From Asterochloris sp. CNOR1 (lineage: Eukaryota > Chlorophyta > Trebouxiophyceae > Trebouxiales > Trebouxiaceae), in NCBI GenBank assembly GCA_963969365.1, contig OZ017756.1, positions 1,426,001-1,490,000 of the forward strand: DNA of 64,000 bases. The letters are read 5' to 3'. Under the pieces are notes generated by a model. The model was not told the origin of the DNA and did no database searches. It was given only the letters and a program-made list of their open reading frames with translations. Shown here in pieces: positions 1-64,000 of this stretch. Position 1 is the stretch's first letter; each line of letters opens with the position of its first letter. The position numbers and the translations under genes were made by a program.

Positions 1-1865
1 CATGCTGATCACATGGCATGTCACCAGTGCACACAGCAGCAATATTGGGGTTTGCTTGCTTTTGCATACCGTCCTGTACCTGGCAGCAGAACTGCAGGGG
101 TGCACCATGTGGCTGTGCCATGTCACAACCTCTTCAGGCATCGACATGGGTGCCAGCAAGTGGAGTTCGCTGGACCTGCAGCTATTGGCCCCCAGCAATG
201 TACGAAGCCGTGCTGAAGCTGCATGAGTATGGTTGCCGCCCCTGATGTGCCAGCCTGCTGCCAGGCGCAGCTCCTTGATGTGTGCCATCCTGACAATGTG
301 TGTGCACCGTGCTCTCTGGTTCAGTGCCTGGACCTGGACGATGAGTTGAACACCCACAGCAATTGGCACGTGGAGGCTGGCCCCTCAGCCACAACCCAGA
401 AGGTTCTGCTGGGCATGCAGTGGGCAGTGCGCCGCTTTGACTTTGACTACTTCATGAAGCTGGGGGACGACTCATACTTCAGGCAAGCAAACACAGAGGA
501 AGAGAAGAGGGGTGTCTGCCATCGGATGCTCTGTTCTTGTATTATTCATGTTGCAGCTCCAGGCAAGGAAGAGAAGAGGGATGTCTGCTGTCGGGTGCTG
601 CGTGCTTGAGAACCTCATGTTGCCGCTCCAGACAGAACACCAGGCCTGACACACTGTATGGGGTTGCCTGCTGGGCGTCTTACACTGCCTCCAGCAGCGC
701 GCAGCTGTGAGAAACAAACCACACTCAGTACAGCCACATTGCGCAAACTGTGGCGTGAGCTAATGCTCTGCTGAGATGCCAAGCAAGCTGCGTCGCACAG
801 CTGTGCTCGCGCAGCCTGCTTGGCTTTCGAGAGCCTTCCGTGTCCTCCAAATTTTTCTTCTGCACCTGTGCATCGTGTTTGGGTTGTCTGGACCCCCAAC
901 ACCTCCAGGTCTCCACCCACAGTCCACTCACGAGGCTGCGGTGACAACCTCAGGCTCACCTATGCTGCATGCTTGGGAGTGCTGCCATCAGAATGCGCAA
1001 TGCATATACGAACACCTGGCCCTGCAGGGTGGACAAAATGGTTGGGATGATTGCCAATCAGATCTTCCCCAACAAGAAGGTGGTGGTCGGCCAGATCCTG
1101 GAAGCTGAGGTCCATGGAGTAAAACTGAAGTATGCACAGGTGCGGTGTTGACCAAACCAAGCATCAGAACTGAGTACTTGTTTTGCTTGCTGACTACCAG
1201 AAAGAAATACTCAGGTCTGATGCCTGGTTGAGCTGCCATGCAGCCTTTGGCAGCCAGCAATGTGCCGCTGGACCCCAGTGGCTCTCTGCTGCAGGGCATG
1301 GGTTATCTGGTGTCCCACGACATCTGCGAGTTTGCAGCCCATGCCACACAGCACCTGCTGGACACAGCCCCCGAGGTAAGCACCGTGAATCCAGCATAAG
1401 TTCAAGGAAACAGGTTGGCTCTGCACATGTCGTGGAGAACACAGTCTTCTGAAGGTGGCGCCTGCCAGCAGGTTTCCCCACTCCGCAAATACAGCAAACT
1501 CCTGTGTGGCAGCCTGTCATGGCAGATAGTTGACAGCATGCTGCCCTGTGCAGGACTGCGTTGTTGCGAAATGGATGATGGCAATGGGAGTCAAGTTTCA
1601 GCATCACAATGGCTTCAGGTATAGCAACTGTGAGCCCACTGTCAGCGCAGCAAGTTGCTACTGACATCCGGCTGTGCACATGTGCAGGGATACTGATTTT
1701 CAAGCAAGCTGCGACAGTGAATTGATTGTGATGGTAAGGCTGTTGCTGCTGACTGCTTTATATTGCAATGAAGCAGCATCATCACCAATACATCTGCGGC
1801 TGCAGCATAAGCTCAAGCCTGAGCTCTGGCCCCGCATAAAGGACAATGGCGAGTGCACAGCCTGA
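1..1865 (+). CDS. GT31-type galactosyltransferase, 3' part
   Basis: C-terminal part of a beta-1,3-galactosyltransferase-like (GT31) enzyme, expected to be a Golgi type II membrane protein adding galactose or a related sugar to glycans; the 5' end is outside the window. Exons 325-482, 1028-1139, 1244-1375, 1554-1618, 1688-1733 and 1806-1865 join in frame. The first holds the metal-binding DxD-type motif (KLGDDSYF) after an FDFDYF strand. Exon 1244-1375 reads GSLLQGMGYLVSHDICEF, the family's 'SGxGYxLS' acceptor-binding block, and exon 1554-1618 starts EDCVVAKWMMAMG, the conserved ED-V-G motif. The intron after 482 uses a GC donor (GCAAGC), proven by frame and family continuity. An exon near 183-230 (frame reading MYEAVLKLHEYG) may precede it, but I could not join it. 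The precise sugar acceptor cannot be told. Confidence 0.8.
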
Positions 1866-2179
1866 GGGCCCCTGGCAGCCTCCTGCACTGCTGCGTTTTT
1901 ATGCTGCTCTCCTCCCTTTGCTATCAAGCACTGCAGAACTGCCATCCCAGATAATTGCTGAGGTTTGCTTGCTCGTTTGAAAATGTTTTGACCTGAAATG
2001 CCGCAGGAGGGCTTGTGCCCGTCGGCATACTGAAATAGCACTCACTCGCCACGGCTGCTCGGATAGCATGCCGATGGAGGGTAGGAGTGCCCTTGAATGT
2101 TATCCTGAGGACTTGGTCATGAGCGAGGACTAATGGGAGTCCTGCCGTGCAGGCATCAAATCACAAAGCAGGAGCCACC
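1866..2179. other. intergenic, tandem genes
   Basis: 314 bp between the stop of the GT31 gene and the proposed start of the docking-complex gene on the same strand. It must hold the 3' flank of one and the promoter of the other. I see no coding, RNA or repeat signal. Confidence 0.5.
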
Positions 2180-5100
2180 ATGCAGTCTTTGCAGAAACAC
2201 AGCAGTTCTTCATCAAGCAAAGGTGCGTGGCCTGTGAGAGAAGTCCCATGAACCCAAGCAGCTACACAGTATTGTGCAGCAGAGACCGATACCTCCTGAT
2301 GGCATGGACCGTGCATAAGCTGGCAGATGTGCTGACAGTACCTGGAAATGCCTGCAGGGCGGCCATACAGAAACTCAAGGAGGACAATGCCAAGCTAAAG
2401 GAGGAGCTGCTGCTCGAGAACAAGTTCAGTGTGACTCCGACCACTGCCAATGCTGCAGCACTCATCAGCAATTTACAGGAGCAATCAGATGTGTACACGC
2501 GCAAGGTGATTGCTGCAGCAGCTGCCGAGCCTCTGTGAGGCCTTGGCGATGTGGCTGAGCCCAATGCCATGATTCAGCACACAGCGGGGCTGCTCCTGCC
2601 ATGCTGAGTTGAGCATGCTGCGCAAGCCTGGACGTAACGCACCCACAGCAGCAGGCAAAGCTCCGCTCTGCTTGGGGGCTGGGCTGTGCCCCCACCAGGC
2701 TGCATGGGTCCAGCAACCAAGCACAGCAGCAGGGTGTACAGGATGCTGAGCACCAATGTCAGCACTTGTGCATTGGCAGGTAAGTCACAATCGGCAGCCT
2801 GCAGCAGCATAGGGCTGACATGAGACCCGCTGGTGCGCCACCCTGTTGCAGTGCAGACGCCGTGCGCGGCTGCACCCTGCGCAGGCAGGAGCTGATAATC
2901 TGGTACTGCAATGTGTGCAGATTGGCATGGAGCGCTCCCGTGTGGCGGAGCTGGAGGAGAGATCAGCAGCCCTGCGCGAGCAGGTTGCGGGTCAGCGCAA
3001 GGCGATGGGGGGTGTCAATGCCGCCCAAGAGAGCACCATCGCAGTGAGCACAAGCAGTTTTTTGTATGGTGGGCAAGTCCTGGCCTGGCTGCGGGTAGAC
3101 CAGCAGCTGCGCAGGCATTGAGCCTTGCTGGCAGCTGTCCCTCTCGGCGGTCCCAGGGTGCAGTCTTGCAATTGCACTGGGTCAAGGCGCCTGTTTGGTG
3201 CTGCCTGCTGTACATGCATGGGTGTGATGGAGACTGCCAGCTCAACTGCGTCCCTGCCCTGACTGCAGATGCAGAAGCAGATGCGCATCCTTGAAAACCG
3301 CCTGGAAAAAGCATACCACAAGTACAATGAGAGCCAGTCCCACAACCAGGTACGTTCCTCCTCCTGCATCTGGCCTGGCTTGCCAACCAGATGGCAGCAA
3401 CATGTCTGCGGCATGGTTTTGCCGGCCTGGCATGAGTGCTGGCTGGAGCAGCAAGCTCTGCAGAGATGCACCTAAATCGAGCTAGCTGCATATGCCGAAC
3501 AGATCAAGTGACCTCCCGCAACACCCTTGAGCCTGCTTTGCCAGCAAGGGCAGGGGAGGAAGGTGGCCCCTCAGGTCAGCAGTTGTCTGTCAAGCTTGCC
3601 AGCGACCTATGGTTGCATCACAGGGAGACTGACTTGATGCGACACAAATGCCTGCCAGCGAGCTGTGGTTCTCAGTGAGCTGCAGGCGCTGTTGAGTAAG
3701 GGGACCTCGTCTGTTTCAGATGGGGACCCTTTGCATGAACAGAAGTAGCATGACAGCTTGGTACCCAACCCTGCAGATATGCACAGGAAGATTGACAACC
3801 CCCTTTGGGCCGGCCTGTTCTGTCAGACAAGCCCCTTCAGCTGGCGCCTGCTTGAGTGTCTGAGGCTGCTCATGACCTGCAGGTGGTGCAAGGCCTGCTG
3901 GAGGTACCTGCAGGTGGTGCATGGCCCGCTGGAGTTGCCCATTTGGCCCCAGAGTGAGCTGGTGTCTGAAAATTCAATCTGTGCAGGTGCTGCGTGGCAA
4001 GATTGACAACCTGCGGCGGGAGCGTCTGGTGTTTGATGACATTTTCAAGAAGCTGGAGAAAAGCCTGCAGCTGCAGAAGAAGGAGATGGCCGGCATCATC
4101 CACATCAGCAATGGTGCCTTTGACACCAGGGAGAAGGTGAGCACCTGAGCATCTGCTTTCCATGCCATTGAGCTCTGGGAGGAAGGCACTGGCATGGCAG
4201 TTGCTTTGTATGGCATTCTGCGCAGTGCCTGGGCCTTTTAGGCCCAGGACATGCCTGCAGCAAGTCAGACAGGCAGCAGAGCAGCTGTTTGTCAGCATTC
4301 TGCATGCCACAGCAGCATTGACAAACAGTACTTGCAAGGGCCAATGACACGCGCAGCACAAGTGTTGCGTCGGCTCATGCTGATTCGAAGATGTGCCAAG
4401 AATCATGGGCTTTCCTATCTGGCAGTCTGGAGGACATCTGGTAAGCAGTGTATACATGACAGCCTCTCGCCTCTGCAGGCCATTGCAGAGATGGCGGTGC
4501 TCAAGTTGCAGAGCGACAAGGAGCAGACCATGTGCGAGGCCGAGTGGAAGCACCTGACGCAGCTGCTGGACGCTGATCGTCAGCAGCGGGTGAGCGCCTG
4601 CTTCGTGACTGCTGCTAGATGCCATCATTGCAGACGCAACCCAAGAGCATATTATGTGACAAAGCTGCTGGGCACAGACTGCATGTCGCAGATGAGTGCC
4701 TGCCTCACCACTTGTGTCTAGCTGCAGGTGCGTAGCATTGTTAAGTCTGATCTGAGGAAGGTGCTGGACGCAAAATGCTTGCAGCGGGAGCATTGCATTC
4801 AGAGCAGCAACTGCTGCAGGGTGTGGTCTCTGCAGCACCAAATTTAGATCACCACTGAGGACCGGGCAGAGGCACAGGCTGCCAAAAAAAGTCTATGCAC
4901 TGAGCTCAGGGTCTCTGCTGCATGGGGCGCTACTAGGGTGGATCAGACGCTGAGCTGTGGGTCTGTCACTGCATGCCCACTATCAAGGGCCAAACCCCAA
5001 ATGGTCTAGTCTCCACCATCACTTTACCCATGCAAGATCTGCAATGTGAGTCATGTACTGCCTGCAGAGCGCTGCTCGGGAGGCAGAGATTGCTGAGCGT

Positions 5101-8100
5101 GAGCGAAGGCTAGGAGCGCTTATGAAGGAGGGGCCTGCCAGGCGCAGGGCTGCCAAGGTGGGCACCTGCATGCGTGCATAACAGCGTTTGGCCGCAGTCT
5201 GCACCGCCCTGTCTCGTGCAAGCTAAGCACTGTCAAATGAGGGCCTGCAAGGCACAGCTCCCAAGGTGGGCACCTGCGATCTTTTTGGAAAATGATTGCC
5301 TGCTGTGGACATGGACACATGCAAGCCAAACACAAATGCAGAGGGGCCTGACAGGTGGCTATGAAGCCAGGGCGCCCTGTGAAAGGCTGCAGTGCATACA
5401 TGTCTGCCCACAGCCATGGAGGCAGACAACCAGTACAAGCCTGAGGTGATCAGTGCACCCTGCCTGCACATCCCTGCTAGTTGCGGAAAGCAGTGTCTGT
5501 CGAGCGACTACACTGTTGTGATGAGCCACCTACTTGGGTACGGGCGCCTGTGTGCACGCCCCTGGCAACCTCTCTCACCTTCAGCGCACATGTGATGGGT
5601 TTGACTCTTGGCTGTCATGCAGGCTGGGGAGAGCACCATTGCTAAGGAGAAGGCTGCCACCAACTCCAGTATGAACCAGGTGCAGCATTACGGGGAGGCC
5701 TTTGCCAAGATACAGGATGCCACAGGTGGGGAAGGCGGCCATGTGCTGTTCTGCTGAAGGCTGCAGGGTGCGACTTGGAGTGTAGTGCCCTTCCCTGATG
5801 CAAGGTGAAACCGTGTGGGAGAGGCAGCTGCATGTGGCGTTGTGCTGAAGGCTTCAGGATACTGACGCAAAGCGAGGCACCCGTTTCTGGTGCAGCAGCC
5901 TGGCCTTCACAGCTGCGTCCTGTGCATGCTATCCTGGTGGGACTGACAGCATGCTGACGTGCCTAGGGACCATGCTGGGTCCGTGAGTGCCTCTGTGCAA
6001 GCACCACCAGCAGCACATCTGTGAAGCCCTGGTCAAACAGCAATGTCAGTGTTCATAAAGTCTGTGCTGTGCAGGCATCAAGGACATAGACAAATTAGTG
6101 GAACGCTTCATGGAGGCTGAGGATGCCAACTTCAGCCTGTTCAACTACGTCAACGAGGTCAACGCAGAGGTTGAGAAGCTGGAGGACCAGATCGGGGACA
6201 TCAAGGTAGGGCATGACCCTTGTCCTTCTTCTAGATGGAGATCAACTGCGGCAGCTAATGAGAGGATTGTGATGTCGGACCGGGCCGATCTGAGTGTTGT
6301 TGTGCGCTTTGCATGTCTTCACAGCGTTCTGAAGTGGGTCAGGCTTCAGAAAGCATGGCTGCCGTAAAGTATCTGCTTGGGTAAGCCTGCTGGTGCTGTG
6401 CCAAGACACCAGAGCAACCGCATACCAGAATGTGGAATCCAGACAACCGCCCCAAGGGAGGCTGCGCCCCTCAGGCAGGACTCAGTCTTGTGGCCGCTGT
6501 AGAAAAGGATGCCTGGGTTTCCCTGGCTGCAGCCTGTGCTAAGCCCAAGAAGTTGGCAGCTGCGTGGGTGTCAGGCCTGCTGGTGTACGTGCTGCCATCA
6601 AGCCTCAACCCATGTCTAGACTCTGAGGGCCAGGACTGACCCTTCTCGTATCAGCATGGCCAAAACCCACCGCCGCCTGAGGCAGGTGTATAGTGTTCAT
6701 GTGTAGACCCTCACCCTGCTGACCAATGTTGCAGGCAGAGATTGACAAGTACCGTGGAGAGGACATTCAGCAAGAGACCCAACGCAGGAAGAACCTGCAG
6801 GTGCGGCGGGGTGCCTTACGTGCATTGAAAAGTGTCTGTGATGCAGGTGACCCTGTGTCTACGCAAGCCGCCACTTATGTGTTGGGCTGGGGTCGTGCAG
6901 CTGGGGGGCCCAAGCAGGCTAGCATCACCATCACTGCCTCTTCCTGGGACCTGCATGGGGTGTGTCAAATGCCGGCCCTGAAGGTTGCTGCCTGTGCATG
7001 CCGACTTGATGAGATGGGAGGCTGGACGCCGCTTAAGCATCAAAAGCTTTGGTGAAGCAAGACTAGAACGGATGGCGCATAGTGGGCCGCCCTGCAATAC
7101 AAAGGACGCCCTTTACCAGCCTCTTGATTTGCTGTGCTACATGCTGCTGGCGCTGTCATGAGGGCTGGGAACTGCTGCAGCGAAAGGCGGCGCCTGGGAC
7201 AGGGGACGCTACATCAAGGTTTGGCCTTTGGCTGCTGCAGGAGCAGGAGCAGAAGCTGGCTGAGGCAAAGGAGAGGGCAGCGCTGTACGAGCAGAAGCAC
7301 GTCAATGCTGTCAAGCGGGTGGACCAGCTGAAGGTGAATTTCTTTGCTGGTGTTTTGCACAGAAGATTACCAGCATAGAACAGGCAGAAGCATCCTTCTC
7401 AATCGTCAGGCAGCTGGATCAACAGAATCTGGGCTTGTACCTGACAGTTTCTTTGCCACAGACAGCCTTCTTCACCCTGAAGAACACGTGCAGAGGTATG
7501 CATTGGCTGCCGCCAAGAATGTGGTGCTGTAGAAGGTGGGTGGGCTCTAGGACTGGCCCTGGTGAGGCCGGCTGCAGGACTGGCAGCTCTTACCTGCAAG
7601 ACCTGTTTGCAGAGCCAGCAGCAGAAAGCAAACAAATGCAGTACTTCGACTGCTGGCTGCTGCTGCGGGCTTGCAGCACATACCAGCCTCTGCCTAAGTG
7701 TGCCCAGCAGCCACAGCAGCTCATGCTTACAGGCATCCATCAACAAGCTGCGCACAGCTGCCTCATGATAACAGAGGACTGAGACTGGAATCCTCCAACC
7801 CCTGATGTGCATGCTTGATTTGCTGTTTACCACATGACAGCCCTGTGGGTGCAGTCATTGCCTGGCCCCCACAAAACTACTACCCAATCTGCAGGACTGC
7901 ATCATGCATTGGCTGCAGCATGCCGGCTGTGCAGGACCTCTCAGTCACTGCCCCCACAGAACGCCACCGTTCCCCTGCAGGACTCCATCATGCGCATGTT
8001 TGAGGAGGCTGGCTGCAGCACGCCGGCTGTGCAAGAGATGCTGGGCGATGTCGGCATCACAGAGGTCAACATGTTGCAGTACCTGGGCATCCTGGAGCAG

Positions 8101-9586
8101 CGCACCAACGAGATCCTGCAGGTGGGGACAGCTGAGGTGGCACCTGCTTCTGGGCGTCTGGAGCAGTGCACCAACCCTGATGATCCACATCTCTCGCCGA
8201 CCAGGGTGGCCAGCACTTGAGACATCCCGGGCATTCTGGAAGAGTGAGACCTGCAAGTCAATAGCCAGCTGTGGCAGCGTGCTTCTTGCAGCCAGCCACA
8301 CAGATGTGCAGCAGTGCAGCCCAGCAGCTTCTGGGGTCTCGTTTTCCTAATACATTCAAACAGCAGGTCTGCTGCATAGCAGCTGCTGACCAGCTTTGAG
8401 CAGCCCATTGAATCTGCCTGTGGCATGCTGAGCGCCAGGGTATCTCTTGCCACAAAGCGTGCGATGTGGCTGCCTTCCATGAGGAGACACCTTGTCAGCT
8501 TCGACCTGCAGGAGTATGTTGCAGCTGTGTCGACAGACTCAAGCCGTGCAGCAGAGAAGGCTGCGCAGCTGCTGGGAGCCACAGGCGGCGCCCCTGCAGG
8601 CAAGCTGGCAGTTGGGATGTTCACAGCTGGGCACCCTGCACTGCCTTGCATGGTTTGATGCTTGGCAGGCAGAGCATGTGCTAGGCCTGTCTGGCTCATC
8701 TGCCAGCCTGCTGGATGTGCAGGCATGTTTTGACTGCCTGTTGTGCGGGAGGTGCAGCACATGCATGCAGCTGGCACGCTGGGTATGCAGGCATGGCATA
8801 ATGCGAATTCTCTGCTCTCACACTGAGGCTTTTCATTTCTGATTGCCTGGTTCCTAGCTGCAACCATGGGCTTGTGCAGTGTGATCGAGCCGCCTAAACG
8901 ACCGGGTGTTCTTTTGTTTGACTGGCTGTATGCTAGCTGTGCAGGCATGAAAACACCTTATGTGATGGGGCCACCAACACGCTGGCTTGCCAAACACTGC
9001 AGACATCAGCGGCAGCCCACTGTTCCTCTGGCTTCTGTGCAGGCATGGGCTCAGACTATGTGATTGAGCCGCCCTCCACGCTGGCAGCGCTGGACAGTGA
9101 TGATGACAGAGCGGATGACGATGATGAGGCTCCGCTAAACCGAGAGGTGAACAGTCTGACATGTGGCATCTAACTTGCGGCTGCCTGTGACAAAAGGGCA
9201 GGGCGCTGGGAATGTTCAGTGTCCTTGTTGCAAAGCCACCCCACAGAAAGGGAGGCCTGCTTGCCGCTTGTCCTCTTTCCTTTCTTCCGGCATGTAAGCT
9301 GGCCCCAGGGTCGTGCCCTCAGGAATGAGCTCCAGTCCAGGCTTGTTCAGGTGCACTCGCCTGTGCTTCTTCAGCTCTCAGGCTTGACAGGCCACAGAGT
9401 GCTGTGTGGAACCAGCTAGCCCAGCCAGCCTGCTTAGTGTTGCTCTCAGTGGTGATGCAGGCACTGGAGCAGAAGGTTCAGAGATCACTGGCAAAGCGCG
9501 GTGATGTTGTCAAACTCAAACCTGCGGCCGTCGTCAAGTCTCCACCCAGCCCTACTAGAGCACAGAACAGAAGCGCGCATCGCTGA
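2180..9586 (+). CDS. ODA1: outer dynein arm docking complex subunit (ODA-DC2 / ODA1, CCDC114 family)
   Basis: Coiled-coil subunit of the docking complex that anchors outer dynein arms on axonemal doublets. Exons: 2358-2505, 2921-3043, 3269-3349, 3987-4136, 4479-4589, 5068-5157, 5623-5725, 6075-6205, 6735-6800, 7241-7333, 7981-8121, 8512-8599, 9043-9146, 9461-9586. Family hallmarks are RILENRLEKAYHKYNES, LRRERLVFDDIFKKLEK, the central FMEAEDANFSLFNYVNEVN block, EKLEDQIGDIK, the EIDKYRGED segment, the FEEAGCS segment and a C-terminal acidic IEPPSTLAALDSDDD stretch with a basic tail. Almost the whole protein is heptad coiled coil. The start is tentative: ATG 2180 has a gccaccATG context and begins MQSLQKHSSSSSS, but its exon does not join 2358 in frame directly, so a small exon may be missing; another may lie at 7333-7981. 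The intron after 8599 is GC-AG. Several introns contain decayed exon copies. Confidence 0.9.
5240..5280. repeat. relic of ODA1 exon 3' end plus donor
   Basis: Degenerate copy, 110 bp downstream, of 5131-5170: the end of exon 5068-5157 and its donor, including CCAAGGTGGGCACCTGC in both. Confidence 0.7.
7889..7936. repeat. relic of ODA1 exon 5' end plus acceptor
   Basis: CTGCAGGACTGCATCATGC followed by GGCTGCAGCATGCCGGCTGT copies the acceptor and start of exon 7981-8121 with a short internal deletion. Confidence 0.8.
8862..8992. repeat. two relics of ODA1 penultimate exon
   Basis: Copies at about 8862-8906 and 8939-8992 precede exon 9043-9146. Conceptual reads VIEPPKRP and YVMGPPTRW parallel the exon's YVIEPPSTL. 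ATG positions 8866, 8947 and 9045 give spacings of 81 and 98 bp. Confidence 0.8.
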
Positions 9587-15306: not shown

Positions 15307-18300
15307 TCAGCGCTTGCGGAGTTTGCCTTTCCTGACGTTGCGCTTGGGCTGAAAGCCACCTGCCTGGTGCTTGTTGCCTTTCTTGGGCTTCTTAGCCAGC
15401 GCAGCCTTTTCCATGTCAGTCAGCTCGGTGTCCCCCTTTCTGGGCGCCCTCACAAACCCCTTGACCATCTTCAAGGGGTCTGCACCTGAGAGTCTCCGTC
15501 GTGCAGCGGGCCTGGGCCCTGCACAACACATCATGCCTCAGGACGATGTGTCCCGCACGCATGCAGCGTGAGCGCCTGATTGATGGCTTTCATTTGCTCG
15601 TGGGCATGCCGGTGACAGTTCAGCCTGATTTTGTGATCACACTCCTGATCAACCTCAGGCACCACATCGCAGATGGTGCAGAAGTGCAGCACCAGCTGGC
15701 CAGATCACACCATGAGACATTGAGCCCATCTGTCTGAAATGCAGATAGGCTCAACGTGAAAAGGCTGCTGCTGCTGCAGTGTCAGGGCTCACTTTTCATT
15801 GCCATGTCTCCTGCGTCATTTCCTGTTGTCTTCTCCCTCAGGTATGTTGGCAGGGTGCGCAGATGGAGCTGAGGCGTGGCAGCTGACAAGGCCTTGTCAT
15901 GCTTCAGTAGAGTAAGGTCGCCTGCAGGCATTTAAAGTGGCCATCAAGGCCCCAAGCATGCCCACGATACCTGCTTTGTGATGCTGATTGAGGACAGACA
16001 GCCCATTGTTCCAGAGCAAAGGTGGGGCTGACCCAGGCTGCCAACAAGCAGGTCAGCAGGGTGCAGCCAGCCATCTGTAAGTTGACCTGCCACCTATATT
16101 CAAACCTGACACAAAGCACCAGGCTTGCCTGGGTGATCCTCAAAGTGGGCTTTGAGCCGCTCAGAGTTTAGCAGCTCCAGCCGCAGCTCCTTGGCCCGCG
16201 CCTGCACAGCAGCTGGAATGAATGTGACTCTGGCAGCATGGAAGGCGTCCAAGGCAGTCAGCAAGCACCGAGCAGTAAAGGTCTTCCCCCACTACATAAC
16301 TGCCACTGAAGCTCAGATGCTGGGATTGGAAACCTCTCTGAGATCTTGAGGGGCAAGGCAGCTGATGCAGGAGGCATCACAACGAAGGCGGTGGAAGGGG
16401 CTGGGTGCCTGCCGTGCATCCCTAACATAAGCTGCCCTGCCACAGCTGCTCGCCACAACACTGCGGTGACTTGCGTTAAGGCCCCTTTTCCTCCCGCCAA
16501 CAACAGGTCTGGCTTGCGCTCACCTCGACGAGTGACAGCGTTAGTGCCCCTGACTCAATGACTTACCGTACTGCAGGGCCACTTGACTTACCGAACTGCA
16601 GGGCCACTTGAAAATTACTGGATCGACCCAGGAGGGAGCAGGAGCCCACCTCTTTGATGACTGTCTTGGTGAGGGACCGTGCTACATCCTCACCACGATA
16701 GCGCAGAGCATTGATGGCTTCCTTGGTGAGTCGTGGGTAGGACGGCAGGCCTGCACCCAGGTCAGCTGTGCCATGCTCCGCATTGCCGCCGCCTGCACAA
16801 ATGGACCAGCAGGGTGCCTCTGGCTGGCAAGCGCTCAACAACCTGGGGCTACCCTGTTGAGCCAAGCACATAAGGGCTGCCCCACGCCATCGCCATATCC
16901 CTGCCCCCATACGTTTGCACTCCCTGCACAAGCAGACCAGCAGAGTTCTGCTGGCAAGCGCACAGCACTTGTGGCTGGTGCCAAGGGTATGACTGCAGGC
17001 CACCCGCACATGCAGCTGGTGCCCTGCTACAATTGGACTGCAGGCCTCTGAACAAGCCCGCCCGCAGGTCTGGGGTCGGGGATAAGATTGACATGGCACT
17101 CTGGTGCAGACCCTATCATGGAAGGCTTTGAAGCTTGCGCAGACCAGAAGTGGTCTGATGCGGCTGTTCTGCAGAAAACAAGCCACAGATAGTGTGCCAG
17201 GCAGCGTTCCAGAACATTATGAGTGCTTTTAGCGCACCTGCACAGTAGACCTGCAGCCTTGAGGAGGCCAGCTGCCCATTGGCTGAGGGTGAGGCCCTAA
17301 CGGTTCCACCTGGTAGCTGCACGTAAGCTGGCTAAAATCACCTGGGCGCCACTTTGTGTGTGCAGTCTTCCGCAACTGCAGTGGGTCCAGAGCCAATGCA
17401 TACTTGGATTCAATGCGTTCCCTTATCTGCCTGATGGCTGCTCTGCAGCGCCACAAAAAGTTGTGCAGGTCCTGTGCATGCATCCGACAGCAGGGACGCC
17501 CACTTAGGAGAATGGCTCACCCAGGCTTGCTGACAGCTCCTCAGCAAAGGCACCCTCCTCAGGAGCCACCAGAGTGATGGCCTCCCCGGTCTGTCCTGCC
17601 CTGCCAGTGCGCCCCACACGGTGCACATATCTGCAGCCAGTGACAAGGTGTAGACAGCGCAACCTCACCAGGACTACAGGCTACAGCAGGCACATGCTAG
17701 CATCAGGCTGAGAGCTCAAGACACAGGCTGGGCCTGTCTGGAACTCCCTGGCTGCCAGCAGGCTTGTGCCATCTGGTGTCATGCCGTCCAGAGGGGACCA
17801 AAGCAAAATGGCGGGGCAAAAGTTGTCATGATGCAAAGCAGAGCACCCTTGACATTATGCCCCAGCTCCACCAGGCAGCGGCTGGGGTAGGCCCATCTTG
17901 GCCATAGTGCAGGGGTGGCCAGGTCCCCTGCTGCACGCAGAGGCTGAGGGCGTAGGGACAGCTCTCACCCTGACAATGTCTGTGGAAGATCCATGTTGAC
18001 CACAGTGCAGACTCCCTTGAAGTCAATCCCCCTCGTGACACCATATTCCTGGCCTGCATTGTCTGCAGGGCAACCCTTGCGCTTCTGTCCCTTCTGCTGC
18101 TGTTTAGCGCCCGCTGACTTCTTCTTCGGGACCTCCTGCAGAAATGCAGCAGTCGTCAGCACCACAACCTGCTCATCACCTGCCACAGGGTGGCAGAAGC
18201 AGCATGCATGCCACCAACGTGCGGCATGGTGCAGCTGTCAACCCCTGCAAAGACTGGAGCCAGCTCAGGAACTTGCTCAGGAGAGCAACATGCAAGGGAA

Positions 18301-39155: not shown

Positions 39156-39282
39156 CTTGGCCAGCTGATGAATTTTCATGCTGATGACACCGCTTGTGCT
39201 CTCTCTCTGTGAGTGTGTCACTCTCTCACTTTGAAGGGACCAGGATGGGATATACAGGGGACCATGTGGGTAGCTTGCATGA
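39156..39282. other. short convergent intergenic gap
   Basis: 127 bp between convergent stop codons, containing a CT/GT-rich stretch at 39198-39233; the two 3' UTRs must overlap or nearly so. Confidence 0.55.
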
Positions 39283-42200: not shown

Positions 42201-43131
42201 AGGACCTCAGTTCATAGACCGAACTAGTGCTCAGAGCTGCCAGAAGCAAGGACCCCCACCTGGCCGGGGCGGAACTTGTCCTTCCAGGGCTCGAGCGTGG
42301 CCGCCACAAACTGGGTGGGGATGACCATGAGGAGCAGCTCTGCATGCTGCACCACCTCTGCTGCGTCACCTGTGGCCCGCATGCCTTCAGGGCACTTGTA
42401 GCCCTACAGAGCAGACCAGGCCCATGTCTTACTGGACTCTGTAAGGTGCCACAATCTTTGTCAACTCAAGCCAACTATGGCTGGGCTGAGCATGCAGGAG
42501 GTCACCATGACTGGCCTTGTGGGTGCCCGCCAGAATCTTGTCCTGCAGGCTCCTGAGCATGGATGAAGCAGCTGTCAGAGCCCCCTGTAGGGGAGCTCCG
42601 CCAATGCAGGCTGGCGTGCATCATAGCTGCTTGCTGCAGGTCCAGGGGCTGGCACGCAGACGCCTCTCCCAGGGCCAGCAAGCGCCCGTGTGGGGCGCAA
42701 CTGCTGCTTGTGCTGCAGGTGCAGTGGCTGACTTGCACGTAGCCAATGTCAGGGTGGACCAGGCTGGCATCCTGGCGTGCGTGCTGCCGCATGGAGCTGC
42801 CAGAGAAGCACAGGAATCATTGCCAACCTTGAGGAAGGTCTTGTTCTCCCTGTCTGGCCCGTTGACGTCTGCCACAACCTCCTGCTCTCGTGCCCACAGC
42901 AGTGTGTAGTGTCCCATCCTGGCAGCATGGATGGCCAGCGCTGTGCCCCATGCCCCTGCATGGTTAGCCTCAAAGCGTCCATCATGAGATCGAGCTGGTG
43001 TCAGGATGTTACTGTAGCTGGAGGCCTGCAGTGTCAAACTTTGAGTCCAAGCTGTCTGTCTGACCTCCTCCTATGACTCCCACGTTGGTTCGCTCTGTGG
43101 TGAGCTTGCTGGTGGATGGCACAGAGGCCAT
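39283..43131 (-). CDS. NAD(P)-dependent glycerol-3-phosphate dehydrogenase
   Basis: Interconverts dihydroxyacetone phosphate and glycerol-3-phosphate for glycerolipid and glycerol synthesis. Nine exons join in frame to 362 residues: 43131-43065, 42955-42828, 42403-42260, 41872-41741, 41109-40989, 40641-40438, 40002-39894, 39557-39464, 39372-39283. The dinucleotide fold is [14 protein letters not shown], split by an intron in the Gly loop. Then come [52 protein letters not shown] with the catalytic Lys, [16 protein letters not shown], and [14 protein letters not shown]. The order and spacing are those of the bacterial/plastid GpsA class rather than the cytosolic GPD1 class. ATG 43131 gives no transit peptide; an in-frame ATG at 43221 would add 30 residues rich in Ser/Arg/Lys that could act as one. 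No phosphatase domain fused, unlike some chlorophyte GPDH. Confidence 0.93.
41236..41430. repeat. two relics of GPDH exon 5' end
   Basis: On the minus strand 41293-41236 and 41430-41381 repeat the acceptor and start of exon 41109-40989; conceptual reads [12 protein letters not shown] and AHSSDHDSF parallel the exon's [12 protein letters not shown]. Confidence 0.8.
41610..41670. repeat. relic of GPDH exon 3' end plus donor
   Basis: Copies 41735-41795 at about 124-bp offset: end of exon 41872-41741 with GCTCACxTCAGCTGCAA. Confidence 0.85.
42050..42112. repeat. relic of GPDH exon 3' end
   Basis: Minus-strand read [16 protein letters not shown] parallels [16 protein letters not shown] at the end of exon 42403-42260. 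Confidence 0.8.
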
Positions 43132-50691: not shown

Positions 50692-53600
50692 ATGGAAGCA
50701 GTCTGGAGGCTAGTTGTGCTCCTGCTAATGAGTCTGGTGGTGACATCGGGTAATTTTCCCCCAAAGGAGCACGGTGGTCACCATGGAGGGCTTCCGACAG
50801 TCACAGCGCTGGTGTTTGCGGGCAGGAGGCAGACTTTGAGGCAAGTAGGGTGATCTCGGCAGGGGCAGCCCTGCTGTCTCTGTGACAGCTGTATGGCTGC
50901 CTGGTACACAGGTGCATGCCTGCTTTGTGATTGCACATTGTGTTATCTGTGGGCTAAGGCTGACAAGACATATATTTGTATACAGGCTGTTGAACTGCTA
51001 CTTGGAGCGCGATCTTCTGCTGAATGGGGGACGGCTGGCAGAGGTGGTCTTCGTCGTGCATACAGAGATTAAAGAGGTGCGCATGGACTGCTGCTGTTTT
51101 GTGTCGCTCTGACATGGAGACCAACCAGCCTAGCAGTGCCCTCTTGGCAGGCACAGCTCAATCCTGCAGCCAGAGCAGTATTGCGCTGCATGGAACGTCT
51201 GCGGCATACCTGAGGGGGCAATGCCATAATATCCTGCCCCATAGAACTCTGCCCTTCAGCACCACGGCAGGGCCCCCCTGTCCTTGAGGGACAGCACCAG
51301 CCTGCCTGCGGATGGTCTGCCAGCTGCATGACATTCAAGGCAGGTCTGTGGCGTTGGAGGTGTTTCTTCTCTGGCAGGCTGCTAGTTTCCCCTTCCCAAG
51401 CAGCTGCCACAGCAGCTGCAGCAGCCTGGGGCAGCTGTTTGCACACTTCAGCTTGTTGCTCACAAAGTTGCTAACCCCATGCTTCAGGACCTTGCCTACA
51501 TTGACTGGCTGGTGAGCCTGCACCCCGGCGTGTATCGCAAGCGGACACCCCAAAGGAAGCAGAATGCAACTGAGTATGATGGGCTTTGGGAGGGGCTGCA
51601 GCCAGACAGATTCTACGTCAAGGTGGGTTTCTTGGAGCAGGCTCATGGGTTGCATGGGACCCCCATCATGACGGCTTGGTCAGCTGACGAGCAACTTGGA
51701 AGGGCTGTTGCCTGGTAGATGAATCTTCTCCAGGCAGGCCCTGCTGGGCCCTGCTAAGCCGCGCAGGCACCACCTGCGTGACAGCAAGCACCCGGGGCGG
51801 CCTCTGTTCGTTGTCAAAATGGGCCAGTCATCAGGGCTGGGTTGCGGAAGTCCTCACACAGCAAGCAGCAGTCAGTGATGGGTTGCAGCCTGAAAGTGTC
51901 TGCCTTGATGCGGGCCTCCCATCCTTCTGTCAGGCCTTGCTGGCATGCAAAAGCGTTCCAAAGTGAGCCGGCATCTCTGGGTTGCTTGCAGCCTGACAGA
52001 ACTAGGATTAGGCTTTGCGACCCATGCTCAGATGAGCAATCACAAGCCCCTAAAGCATGTTGGCACACGGAAGGAGGGCTGCTCTGTGTTGCTTGCTGGG
52101 CTGCACAGCGCCTTGGCTTGCTGCAGCACGAAATCCAGCATCAATGTAGAGCTTGGGCAGCTGAATGGCAGTGGGACCGCCATTCCTATGTGGCTTCCTG
52201 CTCTGATGCTGGCACTGGAGCCGGCCTGCAGGGAGACCCCGCAGGGGTGTGATGTGCAGCCGGCGTCGCCTGCAGCAGCAAATGTTGTGCACAGCTGATG
52301 CCTGTGTTACATGGTCAGTGGCCCTCGCCTGTCTTCTACAGCAATCTCGCAGCACGGGCGTAATGCGGACGGCGGCTGTCATGGAGCAGCAGCAGAGCCT
52401 GCACCTGCCAGAGGTTGCGCCGTGCAGCTGCAGCAGCAGCAGCCAGCGACAGCAATTAGGTCTGAAGGCTTTCACCCTCTTGGTTGCCATGCAGATTGAT
52501 GACGACATTGTGTTCATCCAGGAGGGCGCCATCCAGGCGCTGCTGAATGAAAAGCTCACAAATGACAGGTGCGGTGAAGCAGCAGGCTTGACGGCAGAAT
52601 ATGCCAGGGGCTTGACTGCCAGCTATATGATGTCACCATACAGGAGCCTTCCAGGAGCATGCACAGGTCCTGCAGCAGGTCATGCACCTTTCTCAACAGG
52701 TTCTTGCAGCATGCTGCCACAAGGGATGAGGTGTTGCATGCTGCAAATGCCAACACATGAGAGTCAGCCAGCCAGACTGCATGCTGCTGCCTCCAGCAAG
52801 ACTGTGCCAGCCAATCTGCAGGCTGATGGGTGAAAGTTCTGCAGGCATGGCAGCGGATGTGCCCAATCCCCCCTGCAGCTTCCTTTTCACCCTCAGCAAA
52901 GTCAACAACCCTGTCCTCATGCAGGCATGCTGCATGCCTCCAACAGTTTCAGCTGCAGAAGTGTGCCAGCCAATCTGCATGCTGCTGGGTGAGGTTCCAG
53001 CAGGCATGGCGGCAGATGTGACCATTCCCCCTGCAGGGTACTTTCCACCTCAGCCGGGTCATCAACCCTCTCCCCTCCCTCCTCCCAAAGTGTAACGAGA
53101 CAGTGAGGTTTTGCCATGCAGGTTCCTAGTCACATCAGCAATATCTGCAGCTGATGCCTTTGGCACCCACTGAGACTTTGCAACCTCACTTGTACATTGT
53201 ACACGTATGAGACTTTTCATCGTGTCAACCCTGCAGATTCCTTTTCACATCAGCCAATGTCATCAACCACCCCATCCTCTCCTCGGTGCACGCCCACCTG
53301 GGAGCCCTCACCAACTTCGAGCCCCACTCCCTGAGCAACAATAACTGGCGCCGCGTGCCGGGTGCCTTCAACCTGGACCGCGGGCCCTGCGTGAAGAAGG
53401 AGAATGCCAGCCACTGGTGGTCCACCTGGGAGTGCGCTGCGCTGGCACATTTCAGCTTCTTTCGCAACTTCCAGGCTGGGCGCATGCAGGACTTCACCTT
53501 TGGGGTCTGGGACTTTCATGCTGACAGGTGGGAAAGGGGTCCGCCTCAGAATGAGACAGAGAACATTGTGCATCAGCCTGTGCTGTTGTGTCTGCCACCT

Positions 53601-57525: not shown

Positions 57526-60500
57526 ATGAAACGGGAGGGCACGGAGCGCCAGGATTCAGGGGCTGTGCTTTTGGAGGAGGTTCTCATTGCTGAAGGCTCG
57601 GATGATGTTTCAGACCTGGAGGCCGGTCTCAGCAGGCGTGCTCCAGACAGCAGCAGTGCCGAACCCTCAGCAGCTCCGCTGCTCAGGCCAAGTGGAAGTC
57701 ATGGCGCTCCTAGGCGTCTGAGCTCTGCTCAAAAGCTCGTTCAAGCAGTGAGCAAGAGGAGCTTTGGCAGGTCTCCTGGCCAGCAGGCCACAGGAGGCTT
57801 ATCATCTGTGGGCATGCTCGCTGAGCCAGAGGAGCTGGTGACAGTCAGCCCTGCCCCCTCAGGGACAGCTCCAGGCATCCCTCACAAAGCCGCGCCAAAA
57901 AGTGCAATGAAGAAGCACCCAGGTGGGCATGCATTTTGGCCAAGGGTTAGGTCACTATCCGCATGCTGTCCTGGATGTACTTACGTGCAGCGCCTGTCAT
58001 GTGTGCTTTGATCAGACCGGGCTTTGAACAGTAGATGGGAGGCATGGTTGGCTGGGCTGAGGATGAGCATGCTGCCAGGCTGGCACTGTTGCCACATTAC
58101 TGATGTTGTGTGCTGCAGCTGAGGGCAATGGGACTCCAGGACCCCCGGGCTCTGCTCAGCGGCCTGGTGAGCTGGCTTCCTGGCATTGCAATGCAGCGCG
58201 ACCAGCAATGGGAACAGCACACAGGATAGCACACATTCTGAGCCTGCCACGCTGAACCGCAATACAACCACCTACCAGCTCGGCTGCTGAGCAAGCATGA
58301 CTACGCGATCATGGCAGACCACCCCTCATCATCTGATTGGGCGGTTGCAGCTCTACGTGCTGCATTCAGTCTCGTCTCTGTGGCTTCAGCAAGACATTTT
58401 GAGCTTGCTTGCCTGGCTGCCTGCTTGATCGTTGCCTGCAGGCATGGCATGCTACCCTTTACCGTGCTGTGCTGTGGCTGGTGTTTGACAGCCTGTCTTC
58501 GGCTGTCTGCAGCGCCCTCGCCACTGGACGCACTGCCCCCTCTGCCGCCCAAGGAGGGGCGAACTGACCATGCACGGTCTATGCTGTCTGATGCCCAGGC
58601 TCAATGGGATGAGCAGCAGAACCAGCTCAAGCCGGTGAGCAGTGCCTGAAAGAGGCCCATGCGTGAGCCGCTGGGAGCAGTTGCGAGAGTAGCTTTTGGC
58701 CTCGTCATGCCAAGCTGCTCCCGGACTGGCAGGTGGCGCTCAACAGCGTGCGGCGCTTGCAGAACGCTGCGCGTGGGCTGCTGTGTGGTTGTCTGGCAGT
58801 CCTTGGGCATTGCTTGAGATGCGCTTTCGGGCCTTCATGTGCCTCTCCTTGCAGACCTAGGCATGTACACAGCAAGCCTGGCTGGCCAGGCACAGCTGAC
58901 GAGCCACACGTGTGTCTGCAGGAGAGAGACCCCCCGCACGCTCGACGCAGCCCAGGCGCTGCCAGGTTTTTGGACCCATCGACCTCCTCTAGCTTCAAGT
59001 GAGCCTTCATGAGACTGCCATGCATGCAGCAGGGCTGGTGCTGTCACACGCTCTGGCAGCGCAAGGTCGCACTGCAAGAGTGTGCAGTAGGTAGTGCGCC
59101 TGCTTCCAGCAATACTTGTGATCTCCTGACACATCTGGCTGCCAAGCTGCACCACATGTGAAGGGGCTGGCTGACAGATCAGCAGGGGTTGCTCAGGGGC
59201 TAAGTCTGCAGAGAGGTGTGCCAATCTCCAATGGCACGTCTTAAAGAGCCCACCAGGGACAGTGTGGTGCCATCTGGCAGGGTCAGATGAGGTCTTGAGG
59301 CTGCTGCAGCCTATGTGCTGAGGGCGGGCATCCAAATTCTGACTTGACCAGGGCCTGGAAGGCTGGGGAGTCTGAGCAAGTAGGGTGCCGTGTGGACAGC
59401 CAGCAGAAGGGGTGTCCACACCTGAGAGGGGTTGCATCCTTGGGCTGCAGGGTCCCTGCCAGCGGGCTGCGGCAGACCTTTGCAGACAGCTTGTGGAGGC
59501 CCTGCCTGTGCAGAGTTGCCTTTCTCTGCCTGCAGAATCCCTGCAAGTGGGCTGCGGCAGACCTCCCACAGCCAGTATGCGGGGGACCTGCACGTGGAGA
59601 TGAAGGAGGTCATGCCCCACATCCCGGAGTTTGATCAGCCCACTACCAAAGGGGTGGACCCTGACCCTGGCGACCGTGCCTCAGTGAGCATGCCAGCCTG
59701 ACTGCAGCACGTAGCAACCCCTGACAGAACATGGTTGATTCTGACTCAGGCAATTATGCCTCACTGCCCACAGTGCACATTCCTGGTGGCTTCGAGAAGC
59801 TGTGGGCTGCAGCCTTGACAGCCCGCCACCACGAGTGAGGATCCTGACCCCGGCTTGTGGCCATGGCACAACCTCAGCTTTTGACAGGAAGTTTCAGCGC
59901 CCTGCATGGAGCCCTCATCTCTTGATCACAACACAAACTATCAGCACGGGGGTCGCTCTGCATAGGCTGTACGTCCTGGGACTCTGTTTGTTGTGCTTGT
60001 GCATCATGGGGCACTTAAGCTACAGTCAGGCCGGGTGGGGCAGGGCAGCCCAGTGTGCCTGTCACTTCCCAGATGCCCGGGCAGAGCCTCCAAGTGAAGT
60101 CTTCTGTGAACTCCATCACATCTTCTGCTGCCTGCACAGGAGCAGGACGATGAGAGCGCCAGAATGGAGCGCGGCGACGACATCGAGTTGGAGAAGAAGA
60201 AGCACCACAAGCTGCTGGGCATTCGGCGCAAGCTTATCAGGGCATTGCTGATGCCCATGCTGTGCCTGCTGTTTACGGCGGCCGCGGTGACTGTGTACAA
60301 CCTGAAGTACGACCTGGTGAGGCCAGCAGACCTGCCAGCGTGCAGCGCATGATGGTGCGCCCCCAGTGCAGCATTGGAGGGGCACTTACTAGTCTGCAAC
60401 ATGCAGCCCCTGTGATGCTTGGCTAGCCTGTTTGAATGCCGCAGCTGTATGCTGTCAGCCTGCAGATGCTGCCTTAGTACAGCCTTAGCTGCGTACGAGA

Positions 60501-63500
60501 GGCTGCTTTCGGTGTGTGCAGCCGCCTAAGTGTCACGTCAGCATGGCACAGTGCAAGCAGCATCATGTACATTGCTACTGCTGTCAGGCACTGTTCATTG
60601 CCAGTCTTGCCTACTACAGTTCCTAATGCATGGGCCCTGGCCATGCAGTCAAGCTCACACAGCCAGAAAGGTTGGGTGATATGCAGCATGCCAGCCCTCA
60701 GCCTTGGAGTACCGTAGGCTGCAATCTGCTGCCAATGTGCCCTTCAGCCTGCCATCGCTCTTGCGTGCAGGTGCTGGTATTCTTTGAGCTGTGGCGGTGG
60801 CTTTTCTTCTTTGCTGGGCTTATTGCAGCCTACTACGTCGCCTACTACTGCATGCAAGTCGTGGTCGTGATGATTGAGTCGCAATTCTTCACCTTCCGCC
60901 AAGTTCTTTACTATGTCATTGGCATACGGGTAAGTTCAGCAGTCACTATGACACCGTGTGGCATGCAGCAATAGTGCCAGGCGGCTGCTCGTCTGCAGCT
61001 GCATGCCTGGGGTCATGGCAGACTGCTGGTTGCTTGACTGGACTGAAGCGCACAGAGGCAGCCCCATGCTGAAACATGACTCGAGCTGCTTATGTGGGCG
61101 CAATACTGGCAGACCTATGCGTAAGCCGCCGCCAGCTGTCAACTTTTGGTGAGTCAGTCCGGCGTTTTTGAGGGCGCTGCTCCTGTAGCCTGCCCGACCC
61201 GTGTGTGCCTGTGCGATGTGCAGGTCGGCCTTGAGCGAGTGGTGAGGCAGGGATTCATCATCGCCCTGTTTGTCGGGATCTTTGAGCCCTCTGCGCAGCT
61301 CAACAAAACCACAAACAACCGCTATGTCAACCTGCTGCGGTGAGGGGCCCTCTATGGCAAAGCACAGGCCAGGCTGCAAGTCAACATGCGCTACAAAGTA
61401 CGACTGTCGCAGTGTTACACACGCATGATTGCTTCAGGAGGCGCTGCGAAGCCAGCCTATGCAGACATTGTGCCCTCACCTGGACCCCTAGTAGCCTGAA
61501 CTGCATGCCGTCAACAAGCTGCTGGGGCATGCATCATGTCTCGACATGCTGCTAGCAGGCCACTCATGTTCATTGGCAGTTCTAGCCCACACCCTTTGAG
61601 TGCAGGCTGCATGAGGCTTGCTGGGGTGCATTTTTGTAAGCATGCCACAAAACCTGACTTGGTGCTGTCTGCAGGCTGCTAGGGTGCATCATGCTCTTCC
61701 TGGCAGCCAATGTCACCAAGAAGATTGCTGCCAAGATCATGTCAGGCCACTTCAACCAGGCCTCACACTATGACAAGATGCAGGACTCCCTCCGCAAGGT
61801 GAGCCTGATTGACTGATGCGTCTCACATCAGACCCATGGCAGCGGTGTCTGCAGGATAGAGTAGAGCTTTTGCGAATCACTGGCTCCAGACCAGGCCCAC
61901 CACTAGCCCATGCACCAGCAGGGAAGGCCTGCATGGTGTGCGCTGCTGTGTTGCGGAAGCACTTTCTGTGCATTGGGAGATGTGTAGCTGTGGGGGGCCA
62001 ACTGAATACAGGAGACACAGAGGGAACTTTGCAGCACAACATCCCAGGTTGTGCTACCGGACAGCGCAGCTGGCAGCCAAAAGGGTGTCCATGCCTGTTT
62101 GTGATATCGGCACACACAAGAAACAATGACCAGAAGACAGCAGCAGCTCGCACACGGCTTCGTGGGACTTGCTCCATGCATTGCTGGCAGCTGGTTCTGA
62201 TGGCCCAGTCAGGCGCTATTGCTCAGCACTCCACCTACAGGATTGCCCTGCTTGATGCGGGTTGCTGCGCAGCCTGCGCTGGCTATGCCTGCAGAGGATC
62301 AGCCAGCTCAGCTGAGCGCCAGTGCCCAGCCTCCACCCTGCTGAAAGGGGCTGCCCGACTGTCTTTACGCCTGAGCTGGCTGACAACCGCAGAACAGCGC
62401 CTGCAGGCACCGACAGCCCAGTGCTAGGGTCACCTCCTGACCAGCTGCAAGCAGCAATCCACTTGACTGACTGCGTGCTGCTGTCTGGCGCTGCAGGAGT
62501 ACTTCCTGCTCGCACTGTCTCAGCCGAGGACGGATCGGGAGATTGATGACCCTCTCAAAGAGAAGCCATCTGGACTGGCAGGCCTACGCACCAAGTCCTT
62601 TGCAGCCACCGGCAAGCTGGTGGGTGGCGTGGGCGGACAGGGCGCAGCATGTCAGCGCTGTGCTGTGGTGCCGCTGGCAGGCTGCTGGTTGCCTTCACAG
62701 AGTCCAGCAGGCCGCTGCTTTGCTTGTCTGTTCACCAGCATGCTGGTGCGCATGGCAGGCTAGGATGTGCTCTTCTGTCAATGTCTTTGAGCCTGTCATG
62801 CCCCTGCCTGTGCTGCCACCGCAAGGGGAAGCACGCCTCACCGAGAGCTGGGCATATTTGCCAGCACTCCGGCCGGTGTGAGTAGAAGATCTTGGCTAGC
62901 TGCGGCTTGTGCTGCCTTGTAACGTACAGGACATTGGGCTGTGGGCCTGATGCTGGAGGCAGGCTGAGATGTTGCTGCCTGAGCTGGTAAGCGCCCAGCA
63001 CTGTGTGCGCGCCCAGGGGGCCTTGGCGCGGGCAGGCGCTGTCAGGACCAGACCTCTCCAGTGCCTTGGCCCAGCGCCGCAGATGAAAGGGCGTGCAGGC
63101 CTCCTGGCAGAGATTGCTCACCATGCAGCTGCACTGGTTGGAAGGGCTTACGTACATCCCTTCAATGGCCCCACCATCCAGGCGCTCTAGTCCTTCGGGC
63201 CCTTCCAAGAAGCGTCAGCTTTGTAGGCCACAGCCCAAAACCTGCTTCTTAGGCACACTGCCCTTCATCTGCGGATCCAACGGCCGAACCCCTCCTAGTC
63301 CATGAAGCTTCATTACGCACCCTGGAGGTCCGGTGGCATGTCGTGATGTCACAGTGTGCCGTCACCTTGCACCACATCTGCCCGCAGATCCAGGGCCTGA
63401 AATCCTTCAAGTCCATGAAGCGCGGACCTGCCTCAGCAGCAGGAGCCCCCGTGCCTCTGGCGTCCCAGGACAGCCTGGCTTCCCACGACTCCCTGACGGA

Positions 63501-64000
63501 CACAGATGACGAAGAGGAAGAGGAGATGCGGCAGAGGGAGGCAGCAGAGCGGCGGGAGAAGCGGAAGCAAAACACGGCTGGCAGCCAGCCCACCGCCAGT
63601 CATACTGGGGAGGAAGAGGGGCTGATTGTGGTGCCCTCGGCAGCCAGCATCTCAAATGCCGAGGTGGGCTGGGGCCCCTGCTGGTTGCCTTCTGTGCGGA
63701 ATGTGTAAGGGAGGGGGGAGGGATTGGCAACAGGCCCCTTGCCTGCTCCTAGTTGCAGTGTGAGGGGTGGCTGTATACTTGCCATGCTGGAGAGGAGGGA
63801 GGGCCTTGTGGTGCCCTCAGGCGTCAGCATCCCAGATGCTGAGGTGGGGCTGGAGCCACCTGCTGGTGGCTTCTGGGGCACTGGGGAGGCAAGCAAGACT
63901 AAACTGAGTCCTTGCCTGTGGAGCCTGGCATTTAGGCTGCTGGGCCACCGCCCTCCTCTCCATCATGACACATTAGTCGTGGCTCGTTCAGCTAGCGACT
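57526..64000 (+). CDS. MscS-like mechanosensitive channel (MSL), 3' truncated by window
   Basis: Plant/algal group II MSL-type channel, likely in the plasma membrane. Exons 57526-57922, 58119-58166, 58513-58634, 58922-58998, 59536-59683, 60140-60316, 60771-60929, 61224-61339, 61675-61798, 62497-62619 and 63388-63663 are read; the pore-lining and beta domains lie beyond the edge. About 260 N-terminal residues are Ser/Pro/Glu-rich and disordered, as in plant MSL8-10. Membrane segments: LLMPMLCLLFTAAAVTVYNL, LWRWLFFFAGLIAAYYVAYY, the FRQVLYYVIGIR loop, GFIIALFVGIF, and GCIMLFLAANVTKKIAAKIM. The diagnostic MSL motif is HFNQASHYDKMQDSLRKEYFLL. A linker with GLRTKSFAATGK follows, then a charged exon with DTDDEEEEEMRQREAAER and a basic run (KRKQN), which sits before the MscS domain as in plants. 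All listed joins from 57526 to 62619 keep frame. Confidence 0.85.
59443..59510. repeat. relic of MSL exon 5 start
   Basis: GGGCTGCGGCAGACCT occurs in both this copy and exon 59536-59683; conceptual VPASGLRQTFAD parallels IPASGLRQTSHS. Confidence 0.9.
61505..61650. repeat. two relics of MSL exon 9 start
   Basis: AAGCTGCTGGGGCATGCATC (about 61517) and GCTTGCTGGGGTGCATTTTT (about 61616) resemble CAGGCTGCTAGGGTGCATC at the acceptor of exon 61675-61798. Confidence 0.65.
63778..63895. repeat. ~180-bp downstream copy of MSL exon 11 end
   Basis: GTGGTGCCCTCAGGCGTCAG and the GATGCTGAGGTGGGG donor copy 63629-63670; similarity continues into intron sequence. Confidence 0.92.

Follow-up and report, generated by a model that had tools for sequence, protein, structure and literature searches.

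The lengthening of introns is usually attributed to mobile elements. Tandem duplication, as set out in the available portions of three papers, is a well described source of new introns (PMC3443670, PMC4974935, PMC2891723). In fission yeast, according to one of them, some introns extend over a 24-bp AGGT segment of exonic origin that stands in two or four tandem copies (Zhu and Niu 2013b, via PMC4974935). Moreover, small tandem duplications are described, in the accessible part of a further paper, as products of fill-in at staggered breaks by CST-Pol alpha-primase, in both plants and animals (PMC8355091). An earlier note on a stretch of 64 kb (the window, meaning the whole stretch analysed) had claimed that introns which already exist grow by repeated duplication across exon-intron borders, and that no description of this as a genome-wide mode was known. 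None was found in the open-licence literature either, among the matches listed and at the level of titles and abstract openings: the consulted portion of the Coccomyxa C-169 genome paper (PMC3446292) contains nothing on exon-edge copies in introns, and a term search of PMC3629103, in its available portion, gave the same result.

The window lies within a 56.4-Mb genome of 21 contigs, which contains chlorophyll a/b-binding genes, and the organism is a photosynthetic eukaryote, probably a green alga. About 300 kb of sequence beyond the window were also used, namely 100 kb each of contigs C1 and C2 and ten CCT/Cpn60 stretches; exon models cover 264 kb plus these ten stretches. The gene finder was an HMM trained on 51 of 67 CCT/Cpn60 Pfam matches (9.2 kb), leaving out those with internal stops or reaching beyond the available DNA, and its first version placed 7953 of 8607 positions in the correct frame, as measured on its own training exons. 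A second version, self-trained on the predictions of the first (863 introns), chopped introns at decoy exons; it was rejected as the main model and kept for agreement and as a second labelling. The gene models are thus HMM predictions from sequence alone, with frame accuracy checked on training exons and Pfam run on five first-version window proteins. Above the Pfam cut-off, these five gave an ODAD1 coiled coil, galactosyltransferase, DEAD/Helicase_C, GH47, the N and C domains of GPDH, and zf-PARP; a cNMP domain fell below the cut-off, and the fifth protein had no Pfam match.

The window holds five or eight gene models, depending on the HMM version, some of them merging genes. The model of the predicted ODAD1-like (outer dynein arm docking) gene at 146-9173 is fused at its start with a galactosyltransferase fragment, and GPDH and zf-PARP are apparently fused at 32193-43131 in the first version, where the second version gives three models. 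Over all sequences analysed, 328 of 452 predicted introns have TGCAG acceptors and 17 of the 452 have GC donors. The exons tested had borders agreed by both HMM versions and a length of at least 60 nt, which kept 288 of 302 exons and gave 269 acceptors and 268 donors, each with a flank of at least 120 nt. Exons with disagreeing borders, exons below 60 nt, flanks below 120 nt and low-complexity pairs were excluded beforehand. The flank extended up to the next agreed exon, with a maximum of 700 nt, and may contain an uncalled exon.

The observation itself is confirmed: many introns contain aged and degraded copies of an adjoining exon's edge, splice site included. When the first 30 nt of each exon were compared with its own upstream flank, 30 of 269 beat 100 draws of unrelated introns, and the last 30 nt did so against the downstream flank in 26 of 268 cases, about 1% being expected. 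The same probes directed to the wrong side gave 3/268 and 0/269, probes from the exon middle gave 6/230 and 2/227, and the reverse-complement controls gave 8/269, 2/268, 5/269, 5/268, 1/230 and 0/227, so that all controls lay at 0-3%. The self-similarity at the borders is direct in orientation and specific to the edge and to the expected side. Over 264 kb there are 80 direct pairs with a score of at least 18, where three shuffles give 0 on average. At distances up to 300 bp, direct repeats far exceed those in local Markov shuffles (21 direct 14-mer repeats at 0-50 bp against 0.1), inverted repeats are flat with distance (the shuffle comparison covering direct repeats only), and the self-similarity profile peaks at exon borders.

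With the null set at 1%, copies stand at 40 of the 269 acceptors and at 47 of the 268 donors, that is, at 15-17% of borders, and more than one copy was present at 13 of the 40 copy-bearing acceptors and 6 of the 47 donors, forming ladders. The pattern recurs in all four sequence sets: the window (8/53 acceptors, 9/52 donors), C1 (6/56 and 7/55), C2 (14/91 and 19/89) and the CCT/Cpn60 stretches (12/69 and 12/72), where the Pfam-matched CCT exons alone gave 7/41 and 11/42. Four copies precede one CCT exon on C2. Among gene models with at least four tested exons, 27 of 29 have at least one edge copy, including all five such models in the window; the nine of twelve genes reported earlier have no one-to-one counterpart here, as the models merge some genes.

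A good example in the window is the near-identical copy that had been placed at 26041, which is an exact 23-bp tandem duplication on the plus strand (26040..26085) across the acceptor of exon 26075-26152 of a channel-like gene; the unit, consisting of TGCTGTGTGCAG followed by the exon start TTTTTCAAGTA, stands there twice in tandem. Another is the plus-strand ladder at 52871..53268, where three decayed copies of the acceptor and start of exon 53237-53527 lie between 52871 and 53146, with shifts of 358, 200 and 115 and local identities of 0.90, 0.82 and 0.84, two of them sitting on a 159-bp repeat. Also on the plus strand, the acceptor and start of exon 59536-59683 have a copy at 59445-59479 (59445..59564 with the original; shift 85, identity 0.89 over 35 nt), and those of exon 63388-63663 have one with a shift of 113 (63271..63421). 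In the ODAD1-like gene, exon 7981-8121 has copies on both sides on the plus strand, those of its acceptor and start at 7889..8025 (shifts 86 and 100) and that of its end in the downstream intron at 8083..8176 (shift 67). The end and donor of exon 5068-5157 are copied at 5131..5275 on the same strand, with a shift of about 110 and a second, weaker copy at 213.

On the minus strand, the start of GPDH exon 40989-41109 has two copies in the upstream intron (41066..41418; shifts 175 and 314), and the end and donor of GPDH exon 41741-41872 have one (41615..41785; shift about 118-123, identity 0.83 over 53 nt), the ends being approximate in both cases. A copy at 19133-19157 repeats the end of helicase exon 19211-19394 on this strand (19133..19245; shift 88, identity 0.92), and two further helicase exons have weak donor-edge copies, 17969..18135 (shift 98, identity 0.77) and 19786..19979 (shift 128, identity 0.71 over 52 nt). 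The remaining cases are short plus-strand matches: upstream acceptor copies, both weak, for exons 30894..31174 (shift 116; 24 nt, 0.88) and 61675..61798 (shift 157; 31 nt, 0.84), downstream donor-edge copies for exons 28409..28486 (shift 159; 19 nt, 0.89) and 30083..30297 (shift 201; 19 nt, 0.95), and a weak downstream copy of the end of exon 4479..4589 (shift 198; 20 nt, 0.85).

As regards what was duplicated, single copies mostly end within about 20 nt of the border on the intron side, and the reach of the unit was read from aggregate scores. On the intron side, the aggregate score above the null was 1.26, 0.89 and 0.69 at 7-47, 47-87 and 87-127 nt from the border, with z values of 4.8, 3.1 and 2.0 and rank p values of 0.002, 0.02 and 0.09, and an independent scoring of the first step gave p 9e-5. 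Intron sequence is thus weakly co-duplicated with the exon edge, significantly to -87 nt and suggestively to -127. On the exon side the match holds clearly as far as +60 and has almost vanished at +60..+90, where 4 of 41 copies exceed the 95% null; placing units uniformly across the border in simulation, at the observed shifts, would give 51, 41 and 29% at ages 0.3, 0.45 and 0.55, so that less exon is included than uniform placement predicts. Since intron homology is significant to -87 and exon homology reaches +60, a unit of about 90 intron nt or more, together with at most about 60 exon nt, was probably duplicated in tandem. The median shift of the copies is 147 nt (46 copies).

Younger duplications have the marks of local tandem duplication, namely direct orientation, short distance and adjacent copies. 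There are 69 near-identical pairs in about 320 kb (0.2-0.3 per kb), 22 of which have a gap below 10. The 37 noncoding pairs fall into 16 in tandem arrangement, 11 others whose flanks are similar and 10 with neither feature; the 32 that touch exons comprise 6, 12 and 14, respectively. An array on C2 (571168-571361) consists of about 3.6 repeats of a 54-bp unit in which TGCAG|G and CAG|GT motifs enclose 25 nt, so that it resembles a micro-exon that has been amplified.

The earlier interpretation is partly supported, and the part that the data support is that existing introns grew by duplication across exon-intron borders. Introns are longer at borders with a copy within 150 bp, at a fixed search length: their median is 590 nt at 30 such borders and 413 nt at the 456 others (p 3e-5). 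For copies within 250 bp the medians are 599 (n=40) and 453 (n=357; p 3e-4), both comparisons counting borders, so that one intron may enter at both of its ends. Direct orientation, the expected side, the weak co-duplication of intron sequence and the lack of an excess at the far end of the intron point in the same direction. In introns TGCAG occurs 1517 times and its complement 1520 times; there is thus no sense-strand surplus from which to judge how much of intron length border duplication contributed.

Our reading, which we hold to be rather probable, is that introns of this genome grew, mostly in the past, through local tandem duplication of segments straddling their borders. The duplicated segment would comprise about 90 or more nt of intron and up to about 60 nt of exon edge, including the splice site. 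After a duplication spanning the acceptor, the acceptor copy touching the exon body would be the one used, and after one spanning the donor, the donor copy touching the exon body. The other copy, with its piece of exon, would be retired into the intron, which becomes one unit longer while the protein is unchanged. The retired copy would then decay neutrally, and it should stay readable for longer than ordinary intron duplications, its exon partner being held constant by selection. The exon part may be limited by selection, since an exon-sized decoy could enter the mRNA, or by the placement of the breaks. As for the repair route, fill-in of staggered breaks and slippage would each give direct local copies, and the data do not choose between them. 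The repair of nicks in plants reportedly leaves small tandem duplications as well (work attributed to Schiml, 2016).

The earlier idea of a continuous process did not hold. Young copies are few, only 8 of 50 (16%) being high-scoring, and identity shows no trend with the distance of the copy; a conveyor order, in which the nearest copy is the youngest, was rejected, the nearer copy being better in 13 and worse in 10 comparisons at acceptors, and in 2 against 3 at donors. An ageing simulation in which the intron part is co-duplicated comes near the real score classes and the real intron-side excess at about 0.5 (or 0.55) substitutions per site. The copies therefore look old, at an age of roughly 0.5 substitutions per site, and the growth process does not look continuous, because old events fit better than steady duplication. 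In simulations with independent bases and simple rates, only 6-36% of events are detectable at ages 0.4-0.5. A bolder version, possible but doubtful, is that duplications anchored at borders came in a burst across the whole lineage and lengthened much of the intron complement, starting from the exon edges, the exonic overhang being held to about 60 nt because a longer decoy would be taken for an exon in its own right; if so, the visible copies at 15-17% of borders could stand for a much larger share.

An unlikely alternative takes the border peak as a difference in visibility: ordinary short tandem duplications would arise steadily everywhere, the exonic ones being purged and the intronic ones decaying twice as fast. 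A pair that crosses the border indeed outlasts an intron-internal pair, because its exon copy is conserved while its intron copy decays, and much of the border peak reflects this conservation. The pairs are mostly intron-intron (57 of 110), exon-exon pairs are depleted (1 against 4.8 expected; 2 against 9.9 with the other HMM version), and simulated uniform duplication with the decay rule alone yields a border peak. Its size does not follow, however. At up to 0.59 pairs per kb the simulated border rate is 0.04-0.08 against a real 0.117, and rates of 0.09-0.15 need a much denser simulation, with at least 0.78 pairs per kb; moreover, the simulated high-scoring copies amount to 51-72% instead of 16%, with an intron-side reach in this class of 34-70% against a real 2/8, and the exon part is too short for uniform placement. 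Stationary uniform duplication was accordingly rejected as a misfit, in simulation, at the observed pair density.

Quite improbable, in our judgement, is a border-targeted mechanism, in which breaks or fork stalling at splice motifs, or damage coupled to transcription or splicing, put duplications at exon edges, although a true border bias may exist. In the set of 110 pairs, 18 fall into border classes on the correct side where 4.9 are expected (15 and 6.7 with the other HMM version), and 6 into those on the wrong side where 3.9 are expected (7 and 6.2); for the 45 recent pairs the correct-side figures are 5 and 1.8 (8 and 2.6), and the restriction of the exon part to about 60 nt would also fit. 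Yet intron interiors carry many pairs too, the border counts are inflated by age and visibility, selection against exon-sized decoys could equally shorten the exon part, and no motif was established at the unit ends.

It is very improbable that the copies persist because they work as decoys or as alternative splice sites. The earlier claim that decoy sites are left behind stands in so far as 7 of 19 copies still have TGCAG precisely at its original place; neutral simulation gives 12% for ages 0.4 and 0.5 and 22% for 0.3. The real figure is raised by the background, TGCAG being eight times as frequent in real introns as in simulated ones (0.065 and 0.008 per place). AG is retained in 9 of 21 copies, close to the neutral 34-37%, the copies carry indels, and the strand surplus of TGCAG that accumulated decoys would leave is lacking. 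Taken together, these figures establish neither a purging of decoys nor their upkeep. CTGCAG, at which the earlier note had supposed staggered breaks to be repaired, is in any case frequent in these introns, with 677 occurrences against 469 expected. As side observations, AGGTGGG occurs 44 times in all introns against 24 for its complement, and in predicted introns at least 150 nt long TGCAG is rarer 8-20 nt upstream of acceptors, at 2.5 per kb where its complement has 5.4, as would follow from an AG exclusion zone.

Insertion of introners or mobile elements with long target-site duplications is hardly credible: in some near-identical pairs a spacer separates the copies and the flanks are dissimilar, but a comparison of 434 introns, each 80 nt or longer, gave 3 cross-intron pairs at E<=1e-4, so that hardly any sequence is common to different introns and introners are an unlikely source, and the intron-side homology runs past the border. 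Intron birth by tandem duplication of an exonic AGGT (the Rogers model), which involves the same kind of mutation and recalls the near-identical 31-bp tandem on the plus strand at 3875..3934 (3875-3934), with both splice motifs over a predicted 21-nt exon (3883-3903), is just as scarcely tenable and was rejected, since it puts the edges at the far end of the new intron, where the exon edge matched the far 60 nt of the same intron better than 60 others in 8 of 429 cases against 7.0 expected, and the shift fell within 15 nt of the intron length in 3 of 108 against 2.5 expected.

The adjoining exon serves as a frozen reference against which old duplications in the intron remain legible. From a single genome one can thus estimate how fast introns grow, the size of the unit and the age of the growth, and trace what becomes of duplicated splice sites. 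Gene finders, in turn, may call decoy exons from such copies, as happened here in the CCT genes. Two HSP70 matches of equal score and length lie 25 kb apart on contig C13 (1549656-1549835 and 1574821-1575000); they may have arisen by a recent duplication, and their introns could then be compared within the genome.

Finally, the known systems can be set beside this one, each as described in the portions of the cited papers that were available. Intron birth by tandem duplication (Hellsten et al. 2011, via PMC3443670 and PMC4974935) likewise duplicates splice signals and leaves the mRNA unchanged, but the new intron appears inside an exon, whereas here an existing intron is extended and the copy does not lie at its far end. 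The fission-yeast introns (PMC4974935) share the serial tandem copies of an exon edge inside introns; they concern two genes and were described as intron gain, whereas hundreds of borders were covered here, 15-17% of them with old copies, in introns that pre-existed. Intron sliding and tandem duplication in Drosophila (PMC2891723) are alike in that duplications near introns alter gene structure while the coding sequence is conserved, and differ in giving novel intron positions, with no serial edge copies described in the part consulted. The duplications at staggered breaks (PMC8355091) are direct tandem copies too, and a plausible source of the events, although they are short (<100 bp) and without a tie to exon borders, against a median shift of 147 nt here. 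Introners (PMC9860276) also represent large-scale intron change in fast-evolving lineages, green algae included; their introns are related in sequence, whereas those studied here are unrelated. A single known case in which an existing intron was lengthened by tandem duplication is alike in its outcome, but it is one event, and it is not described as border-spanning or genome-wide. What was known is thus tandem duplication that gives birth to introns; what would be new, to judge by the open-licence papers listed, is the repeated duplication of borders as a probable way in which introns already present grew longer throughout a genome.
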